DNA of 32,847 nucleotides. Origin: a virus. Made by a program: the position numbers and the translations under genes. The stretch is taken from IMG/VR virus record IMGVR_UViG_3300034682_000235, positions 1 to 32,847 of that record. The stretch is one strand, 5' to 3'. The notes under the pieces are model-generated. The model saw only the letters and a list, made by a program, of their open reading frames with translations, was not told where the DNA came from and made no database searches. Of the stretch, positions 279-3,450 are shown in pieces; positions within the stretch are counted from its first letter, which is position 1, and the number at the start of each line of letters is the position of its first letter.

Positions 279-493
279 CCAAAGCCTTATGGGAAATGCG
301 CCAGCACATGATTTCACTCTGTGTGCTTTACAAGCTGGACGTATGGCCGCAAGTGCCCGGCTATGAATGCCTGATGAAAGGCATCGCCAGTACAGCCGGC
401 ATTGACGAAGACACACTCTGGAACTGGTTTGAAAACACTTGCGAGAGCGTTGAACAGCTGCAGGAGTTTGTCGAATTCCATAAAACAGCGTGA
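266..493 (+). CDS. Small hypothetical phage protein (75 aa)
   Basis: Unrecognised 75-residue acidic protein that looks mostly helical. It is rich in Trp and Cys (three Trp, four Cys), but the cysteines are scattered and do not form a clear zinc knuckle. The ATG at 266 is chosen because a strong ribosome site GGAGG (254-258) lies 7 bases upstream. It overlaps the preceding gene by 13 bases, and its TGA overlaps the GTG of the next gene (GTGA), so translation is probably coupled through the cluster. Function unknown. Confidence 0.6.
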   Translation: MDELTKALWEMRQHMISLCVLYKLDVWPQVPGYECLMKGIASTAGIDEDTLWNWFENTCESVEQLQEFVEFHKTA

Positions 494-1143
494 AGCGAAA
501 CAGTCCGGTATTGATGACCGGGCTGTCTATCCAGCGTCGTGGCTGGGTACTGATGAGCAGCGAAGAGGTAAGAGTTTTGCAGACGAAAACATCAAAGCAG
601 CATTTGATAAAAATGCTCCACATTGGCAAAAGCCAACTGCACATGGCCGACGAAAGCTATCGGGCGCTATTGGCCCACCACGGCAAAGGTAAAACCAGCA
701 GCACTCAGCTGACCATTGCAGAACTGCAGGCAGTGCTTGATGCCATGGTTAATCTGGGTTTTAAGGTCGTTAAAAAGCCGGTTAAACCGGGGCAAAAACG
801 CTTAAGCCCAACCAGTAGCGATGGACCGCAAGATATCCGGGCAGTGATCCGCGCTGTTTGGGTGTTTATGGCCAAGGCCGAGTTCCTGAACAATGGCAGC
901 GAAACCGCGCTGAATAGTTGGGTGCAACGCATGACCGCCGAAATGAATGGCGGCATGGGCGTCGCTGAAGTGCAGTGGCTGCAGGATGACATGGCCGTGA
1001 AGGTGCTGGAGTCCTTAAAGCGCTGGTGCCGGCGTGAAATGTTTAACGCTCTTCGGTCCGACGGTCACGAAATCCACCCACAAGCCAGTTACAGCCAAGT
1101 GCTGTCGAAATGGCAACGAATTTATGAAGGGCAGAGTGCATGA
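490..1143 (+). CDS. gemA: GemA-like regulatory protein (Mu gp16 / DUF1018 family)
   Basis: The stretch around residues 33-64 (KMLHIGKSQLHMADESYRAL) and the following T-x-x-Q-L-x-x-x-L-D-x-M pattern are characteristic of the GemA/DUF1018 family. In Mu, GemA is an early/middle protein that modulates host gene expression and DNA topology; its exact action is unclear. The frame opens at GTG 490, overlapping the upstream stop. GemA proteins usually begin close to the KxLIxxIHxxK motif, so ATG 553 is a reasonable alternative start and the first 20 or so residues are uncertain. The gene is followed by an overlapping zinc-motif gene and then Mor, the usual Mu-like order. Confidence 0.85.
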   Translation: MKRNSPVLMTGLSIQRRGWVLMSSEEVRVLQTKTSKQHLIKMLHIGKSQLHMADESYRALLAHHGKGKTSSTQLTIAELQAVLDAMVNLGFKVVKKPVKPGQKRLSPTSSDGPQDIRAVIRAVWVFMAKAEFLNNGSETALNSWVQRMTAEMNGGMGVAEVQWLQDDMAVKVLESLKRWCRREMFNALRSDGHEIHPQASYSQVLSKWQRIYEGQSA

Positions 1144-2602: not shown

Positions 2603-3079
2603 ATGTATCAATTGCGAGGACAAAGAGTAGTCGCAATACCCGAGCATCATATTGCTCGGGTTGCGCAAAACCTGTGTAAAGTATTGCAACTTTCAACGCC
2701 AGCAGGAAGACGAAAGAAGCGGCTAGATAAAGCGTTTGAAGACCTTTGGAAATATTCAATTACGCTTCGGATTGTGGATGATAAAGACTGGAAGTTAGAA
2801 ACTGGCAATCATATCGTAGGTCACTATGACCCTCATACCCTCACGATAAGCGTACCTAATTATATCTATTTAGATGCTTGTGCTGGTGAGCGTTTTGCGT
2901 TGTCGGTAATTCTTCACGAGTTAGGGCACTTGGTATTGGCGCACCAAGCAAGCCTGCATTACTCTTCGCTGCCTGCAACTGAAGAAGAAGACACCGAATA
3001 TCAAGCTGATTTATTTTCGGATTATTGCTTGTCTAACATGGGTTTCGACGTACAGCAGCTGTGTTTTGAGTTTTATTAA
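2603..3079 (+). CDS. ImmA/IrrE-family zinc metallopeptidase (DUF955)
   Basis: Residues 105-109 read HELGH, the zinc-binding HExxH motif. A downstream ExxAxxF element (E132-YQA-DLF) supplies the expected third ligand. This is the signature of the ImmA/IrrE (DUF955) family, cytoplasmic peptidases that usually cleave or de-repress a partner XRE repressor, as ICEBs1 ImmA does with ImmR. All catalytic residues are present and the 158-residue length is typical, so it looks active. It is in one operon with the XRE gene (2-base gap) and is followed at once by a terminator, so the pair is a self-contained unit inserted between mor and the lysis genes. Confidence 0.88.
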   Translation: MYQLRGQRVVAIPEHHIARVAQNLCKVLQLSTPAGRRKKRLDKAFEDLWKYSITLRIVDDKDWKLETGNHIVGHYDPHTLTISVPNYIYLDACAGERFALSVILHELGHLVLAHQASLHYSSLPATEEEDTEYQADLFSDYCLSNMGFDVQQLCFEFY

Positions 3080-3105
3080 AAAGCCCTGTTGACGCAGGGC
3101 TTTTT
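3078..3105 (+). terminator. Rho-independent terminator after the ImmA-like gene
   Basis: AAAAAGCCCTG (3078-3088), loop TTGACG and CAGGGCTTTTT (3095-3105) form an 11-bp perfect stem with built-in A and T tracts, so it could stop transcription in both directions. It overlaps the TAA stop of the peptidase gene. Confidence 0.9.
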
Positions 3106-3111
3106 AGGGGT

Positions 3112-3255
3112 GGCAAATGTTGACGCATTTGCCGAATCACAGGAGGTAATCCAGCTGTGAAACTTGCAGATAGCAACGCAAGTGTAGTGGCTCTCCCAAC
3201 AAGATGCAATCTGTATGGATTTACAGCATGGCATTGCCACTACAAGGTGAATCAC
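3112..3255 (+). ncRNA. Candidate structured RNA leader: chain of four hairpins
   Basis: Four successive inverted repeats tile this gap: GGCAAATG/CATTTGCC (3112-3133), TCACAG/CTGTGA flanking an AGGAGGT ribosome site, ACTTGC/GCAAGT, and TGTAGTGGC (3183-3191)/GCCACTACA (3236-3244) enclosing a smaller CTGTA/TACAG hairpin. The last stem ends directly at AAGGTGA, a ribosome site before ATG 3256. The density of perfect stems suggests a folded 5' leader or small RNA controlling the zinc-ribbon ORF. No known family is recognised. The region is also open from GTG 3157, so it may be partly coding instead. Confidence 0.4.
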
Positions 3256-3399
3256 ATGAAGACAGGATACTGTTCGAAGTGTGGTAACACTTGCGAGGTG
3301 ATCTTCACTCGATACGTGAAGAAAAATGGCAGAACCATCTATCCAAAAAATGGACGGTTTTTTGTCTTCCCTCAATGCAAGTGTTCCAAGCACAATTAA
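3256..3399 (+). CDS. Very small zinc-ribbon protein (47 aa; possible longer start at GTG 3157)
   Basis: Residues 5-11 carry CSKCGNTC and the C-terminal part carries CKC, so four or five cysteines can form one zinc ribbon. ATG 3256 has the ribosome site AAGGTGA nearby and gives a compact zinc-ribbon protein. An in-frame GTG at 3157, with a perfect AGGAGGT 9 bases upstream, would give 80 residues, but the extra N-terminal stretch looks unstructured and coincides with the hairpin chain. Both starts are possible and the shorter is preferred. Small zinc proteins in Mu-like phages include RNA-binding regulators such as Com, but no sequence relationship to Com is seen. Function unknown. Confidence 0.5.
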   Translation: MKTGYCSKCGNTCEVIFTRYVKKNGRTIYPKNGRFFVFPQCKCSKHN

Positions 3400-3421
3400 C
3401 ATATACCTATGTTGTGCTGAA

Positions 3422-3449
3422 AAAAACGCTCTGGCTTCAGGGCGTTTTT
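3422..3449. terminator. Bidirectional terminator between convergent genes
   Basis: A 12-bp stem with one G-T pair (3422-3433 with 3438-3449) and a GCTT loop is flanked by an A run and a T run. It can serve both the + strand zinc-ribbon ORF and the converging minus-strand gene that ends at 3451. Confidence 0.85.
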
Positions 3450-3450
3450 A

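Follow-up and report, generated by a model that had tools for sequence, protein, structure and literature searches.

Antisense systems built on kissing loops include CopA/CopT, ColE1 RNAI/RNAII, the immunity RNAs of P4 and P1, and Fst/par. The locus described here lies in a virus record of 32,847 nucleotides (IMG/VR IMGVR_UViG_3300034682_000235, positions 1 to 32,847, referred to as "the window"), which GemA and Mor matches identify as a Mu-like prophage. It resembles these systems in that its loop sequences vary freely between replicons and in that YUNR (U-turn) loops occur, and its paired loops recall the repeated target sequences of P4-type immunity; it differs from them in that a search for an antisense RNA or a complementary segment found neither. 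Autogenous leaders of ribosomal proteins and translational riboswitches offer a second comparison, being likewise pseudoknotted, conserved leaders in which a segment may pair either upstream (here with GGAG) or with the ribosome site, although the present RNA matches no Rfam 15 family, and we know of no counterpart of its twin loops in either class. The third comparison is Com/mom of phage Mu, with which the locus has in common a small four-cysteine phage protein, here a putative zinc binder, and an RNA structure close to a ribosome site, with possible translational control (PMC6483171). Com acts on the mRNA of another gene, mom, whereas here the RNA precedes the zinc-ribbon open reading frame (ORF) itself, and the RNA is longer and contains a pseudoknot and twin loops. 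The Com motif, GAGNNCC / CC(N)2-3GAG in a hairpin adjoining the start codon of the target (PMC6483171), occurs in the leader family as GAGNNCC in the L070/L077 variant only, as read by eye from the aligned cores, and the likeness to Mu Com is regarded as an analogy only.

The element (Table 1) consists of a conserved RNA of ~170 nt (3077-3250), with a compact core at 3142-3236, which is located 5' of the zinc-ribbon ORF. A sequence-only reading of the window had described four perfect stems (8, 6, 6 and 9 bp) at this place, and all four are present: GGCAAATG/CATTTGCC at 3112-3119/3126-3133, TCACAG/CTGTGA at 3137-3142/3155-3160, ACTTGC/GCAAGT at 3162-3167/3178-3183 and TGTAGTGGC/GCCACTACA at 3183-3191/3236-3244, the last of these with an inner hairpin CTGTA/TACAG and running, as claimed, up to the ribosome site AAGGTG (3244-3249). 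Dinucleotide shuffles average -39.6 +/- 3.8 kcal/mol, whereas the corresponding 149-nt stretch folds to -52.4 kcal/mol (z = -3.4), a value reached by 1 of 200 shuffles. The chain of hairpins starts earlier than had been proposed, hairpin P0 (3077-3106), in which AAGCCC[U/C]G..CAGGGCUU is kept among homologues, having been omitted; moreover, not every stem belongs to the conserved element, as stem two and the 9-bp outer stem are confined to the window and L015, a close relative, the 9-bp stem being missing from the other aligned leaders; the pairing conserved in this region is instead that of the bulged helix and the pseudoknot of Table 1. The minimum-energy fold of the window favours two local stems, both of which are absent from relatives other than L015. 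The hairpin observation was correct, and its importance was, if anything, rated too low.

Table 1. Features of the leader RNA, the zinc-ribbon ORF and their surroundings in the window
Feature	Position	Strand	Basis
ImmA/IrrE-like M78 peptidase gene, upstream neighbour	2603..3079	+	PF06114, phrog_87
Hairpin P0, terminator-like, immediately 3' of the ImmA/IrrE stop codon	3077..3106	+	12-bp perfect inverted repeat
P0 loop TTGACG	3089-3094	+	
Hairpin P1 (first stem of the sequence-only reading)	3112..3133	+	perfect stem; covariation; twin loops
P1 loop TTGACG, same as P0 loop	3120-3125	+	
Bulged helix, GGAG 3142-3145 with CUCC 3193-3196	3142..3196	+	30-core alignment, covariation
Bulged helix, continued: 7-nt bulge, then 3153-3167 with 3178-3192	bulge 3146-3152	+	
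Hairpin P4 (inner hairpin CUGUA/UACAG of the sequence-only reading, plus outer AUGC/GCAU)	3204..3234	+	alignment, covariation
Pseudoknot, AAUCC 3148-3152 with GGAUU 3217-3221 (P4 loop)	3148..3221	+	covariation
Alternative 9-bp stem UGUAGUGGC/GCCACUACA	3183..3244	+	window and L015 lineage only
Ribosome-binding site AAGGUG	3244..3249	+	read from sequence
47-aa zinc-ribbon ORF, MKTGYCSKCGN...CKCSKHN	3256..3399	+	amino-acid conservation from about ATG 3256
Terminator-like hairpin 3' of the zinc-ribbon ORF	3421..3450	+	read from sequence; not among the hits of the consensus scan

In the fold shared by the homologues, hairpins P0 and P1 are followed by a long bulged helix and by P4, the loop of which forms a pseudoknot with the bulge. 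For the core, an alignment of 30 sequences supports GGAG/CUCC, a 7-nt bulge, the long helix AACCGCUACACU/AGUUUAGCGGUU, P4 and the pseudoknot. The bulge strand of the pseudoknot occurs as AACCC, AAUCC, AAUUC, AACUC or CACCC, and the P4 loop as GGGUU, GGAUU, GAAUU, GAGUU or GGGUG. In the proposed structure 89.8% of alignment cells are paired, 13 pairs show double changes compared to 5.3 +/- 1.4 in shuffles (none of 500 reaching 13), and double-change cells amount to 36 compared to 9.8 +/- 2.6 (none of 500 with as many). When the partner strand was slid by 1-3 columns the covariation collapsed, a control which is somewhat favourable because the structure was drawn up after inspection of the sequences; stronger evidence comes from the double changes and from the comparison with shuffles. 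Double changes were found at six of the ten P4 pairs and at four of the five pseudoknot pairs, the latter with 94.7% of cells paired. The P1 stem, for which a separate test was run on 18 ungapped hairpins, is paired in 146 of 162 cells (90.1%, compared to 72.6 +/- 2.1% in shuffles; 0 of 5000 as good), with one pair showing CG, GC, AU and UA across the hairpins. G-U pairs assign the RNA to the + strand, and a covariance model matches the window with 82.4 bits at 3142-3236, the window being part of the training set. The proposal of a structured RNA before a small zinc-ribbon ORF is thus supported, and covariance modelling on homologues, which had been suggested as one way to check it, revealed compensating pairs and a conserved structure.

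Screening of the window and seven homologous loci with the Rfam 15 covariance models returned only Hammerhead_II, elsewhere in the sequences, and nothing relevant was obtained for locus L007 at a relaxed threshold. A search of open-access papers found no description of the leader RNA, large candidate-RNA lists such as that of PMC8040213 lying outside this search. A conserved pseudoknotted RNA family without an Rfam model, carrying co-evolving twin loops, is the core finding of this work. As a separate observation, a type II hammerhead ribozyme (63.8 bits) is located at 493-566 (+) of the window, at the start of a gemA-like ORF, and the same ribozyme is present in the related contigs L004 and L005; hammerheads in prophages were already known (PMC3088659).

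Outside the closest kin of the window, similarity between the proteins mostly begins at or just before ATG 3256, and this is where the coding region starts. Across 40 members of the protein family C6, C9 and C41 are invariant, C13 is common to them and C43 is nearly always present. The AlphaFold2 model of the 47-aa protein is an all-beta ribbon (mean pLDDT 85.7) with paired cysteine knuckles on the ribbon, by which the modelled protein is classed as a zinc ribbon and zinc binding is predicted, while nucleic-acid binding would follow from the fold class. A fold search against the PDB gave no match at E <= 0.001, a viral fold search gave two uncharacterised phage proteins only, and no convincing family was obtained from Pfam, NCBIfam or PHROGs.

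Similarity searches detected the same arrangement of RNA and ORF in two Klebsiella phages and about 70 IMG/VR contigs, as well as in genomes of Rheinheimera and Pantoea. Of 5426 complete E. coli genomes, 56 contain it; four E. coli records carry two copies per genome, the second copies of which were not located. A model search in 395 + 369 further genomes yielded one extra match beyond the seed genomes, which was weak and partial. The upstream gene is mostly ImmA/IrrE, its alternatives being an unrelated 146-aa family (once beside hicAB) or a ~180-aa family, and the zinc-ribbon ORF is found 3' of the RNA at every locus with readable sequence. Considering that the upstream genes differ and the ORF is constant, the RNA accompanies the ORF and not the upstream neighbour, and the module moves as RNA plus ORF, as an accessory gene of prophages. 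The ORF of 46-49 aa, for example in the E. coli prophages L074 and L077, is unannotated in most RefSeq E. coli records carrying it. At L027/L032, around 2800-3135, two zinc-ribbon ORFs are arranged in tandem, the second without a leader RNA of its own. Yersinia phage YP3 (L013) retains only a remnant (2000-2110), in which P0 and P1 are followed by no more than the beginning of the core, where the element breaks off beside a gin invertase gene; its twin loops TTTGCAG are still equal.

The loops of P0 and P1 are identical within nearly every locus and different between loci. For 37 loci, the loops of which were excised by hand from the leaders and tabulated, the string shared by P0 and P1 has a mean length of 8.19 nt, compared to 5.11 +/- 0.29 upon random re-pairing (0 of 20000), the clear exceptions being L021, L045, L054, L070 and L097/L188. 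On a tree built from core and ORF, with P0 and P1 left out, the P0 loop changed at least 18 times and the P1 loop at least 15 times. The 35 rows with equal loops contain 12 different twin sequences, each of which required that both loops had changed, and imply at least 13 joint changes on the tree, a number that does not represent independent inventions, given that tree support is modest and that P0-P1 may have recombined as a block. For three loop sequences both orientations have been observed, namely TTGACG of the window with CGTCAA of L015, TTAGCG of L038 with the CGCTAA group, and TTTGCAG of L013 with CTGCAAA of L192. The feature that is kept is therefore the equality of the two loops, and neither their sequence nor their orientation. 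Leaders further removed from the window (groups B, C and D, among them L037, L033 and L164) have no clean twin loops, so that twin loops are not required by the whole protein family. Within group B, comparison of L028 with L037 revealed the long P1 loop in reverse-complemented form (CAACTCCCCAGTCC / GGACTGGGGAGTTG), about 100-150 bases 5' of the ORF start at 3001, and this comparison suggests that loop inversion in hairpins may be common in these leaders.

The RNA has the covarying, conserved structure before one gene that is expected of a structured cis-regulatory leader, and the best explanation, in which we place moderate confidence, is that the RNA is the cis-acting leader of the 47-aa zinc-ribbon protein and probably controls its translation. 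The segment UCUCC hardly varies, and its partner in the conserved fold is GGAG; it can, however, pair with any ribosome site, its pairing to ribosome sites being calculated at -8.5 kcal/mol compared to -4.7 kcal/mol for other 11-mers of the leader, and predicted folds often bury the ribosome site. The pairing of UCUCC at 3192-3196 with the ribosome site of the window itself is weak, and pairing between UCUCC and the ribosome site covaries no more than when leaders and sites of different loci are combined, about 10% of such permutations doing equally well. Judged from these pairings, a translational switch by alternative pairing of UCUCC is plausible. In one state GGAG (3142-3145) would hold UCUCC (3192-3196) and leave the ribosome site free, and in the other UCUCC would cover the ribosome site. 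In a weaker extension of this mechanism, the twin loops would be read by one complementary nucleic acid which sets the state, this partner being either an antisense RNA encoded at the locus or one that acts in trans.

That twin hairpins with one freely changeable loop are recognised twice over by another nucleic acid is put forward as a tentative reading. YUNR, a U-turn motif typical of kissing loops, is present on the sense strand of 9 of the 12 twin loops, compared to about 17-23% of random loops, where eleven loops were scored together and CUGCAAA of L192 was judged by eye to be without YUNR; many twin loops carry the motif on the antisense strand as well. Kissing loops would agree with this frequency, which is no proof of them. 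In five phages or prophages the sequence outside coding genes contained no complement of >= 8 nt to the twin loops, the flanks of the element yielded no partner for them, and near the element in the window a scan detected no antisense promoter and no consensus terminator. A fixed host RNA is unlikely as partner, with three E. coli prophages (L074, L076 and L077) having three loop sets.

Among the rival explanations, autogenous control, in which the zinc-ribbon protein would bind its own leader, in the manner of ribosomal proteins or of Mu Com on mom mRNA, and the twin loops would be incidental, is rather unlikely but survives best: the protein is small, with an all-beta CxxC..CxC fold, the RNA lies directly 5' of its ORF, and conserved unpaired bases of the core could be protein contacts. 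However, the loops vary while the protein hardly does, so that the protein cannot keep the loops equal, and the Com family is absent among the Pfam matches at E <= 1 of the window protein and six members of A1. A single residue separates the protein of L042 from that of L047, and the loops of these loci are CUGAGAA and CUCUAA; the zinc protein thus does not set the loop sequence, and as a reader of the loops it is ruled out by such near-identical proteins with unlike loops.

An RNA acting in trans, either alone or as a ribonucleoprotein with the zinc protein and with the ORF merely co-transcribed, would use the twin loops as a pair of identical seeds that target DNA or other mRNAs. The compact fold, the loops that are variable yet equal and the U-turn in most of them would suit such a function; nevertheless, we consider it improbable, as the RNA was never found without the ORF at readable loci, no 3' end is conserved between RNA and ORF, and no target was found in the own phage. 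The independent small RNA offered as an option in the sequence-only reading is less likely for the first of these reasons, the RNA preceding the ORF at every readable locus.

Even less credit is given to an action of the twin loops in DNA, as equal short sites inside inverted repeats (a recombinase overlap or a guide reading double-stranded DNA). Conservation of identity alone, and the three loop sequences seen in both orientations, would fit such an action, but the arms of P0 and P1 are unlike, and the covariation of P1 is that of a stem formed in RNA. The sites lie about 30 bp apart, so that exchange between them would ruin both hairpins, and no recombinase gene accompanies the element. Finally, an 80-aa protein starting at GTG 3157, with the stems as by-products of coding, is practically discounted although the window and L015 have an open frame preceded by a good ribosome site, because in-frame stops precede the ATG in 31 of 39 distinct homologues and the similarity of relatives outside the closest kin mostly starts at about residue 29-34. 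The result named in the sequence-only reading as its own refutation, a GTG 3157 frame kept while the stems vary uncompensated, did not occur, as the frame is interrupted and the pairs do compensate.

The locus provides a strongly covarying RNA without an Rfam model, the gene of which lacks an annotation in the majority of the E. coli records containing it, and the concerted twin loops of this leader represent an unusual evolutionary pattern. Through these loops a recognition code that varies between prophages may come to light; if the reading of the twin loops as a double recognition site is true, each prophage would have a recognition code of its own while the controlled protein stays unchanged.
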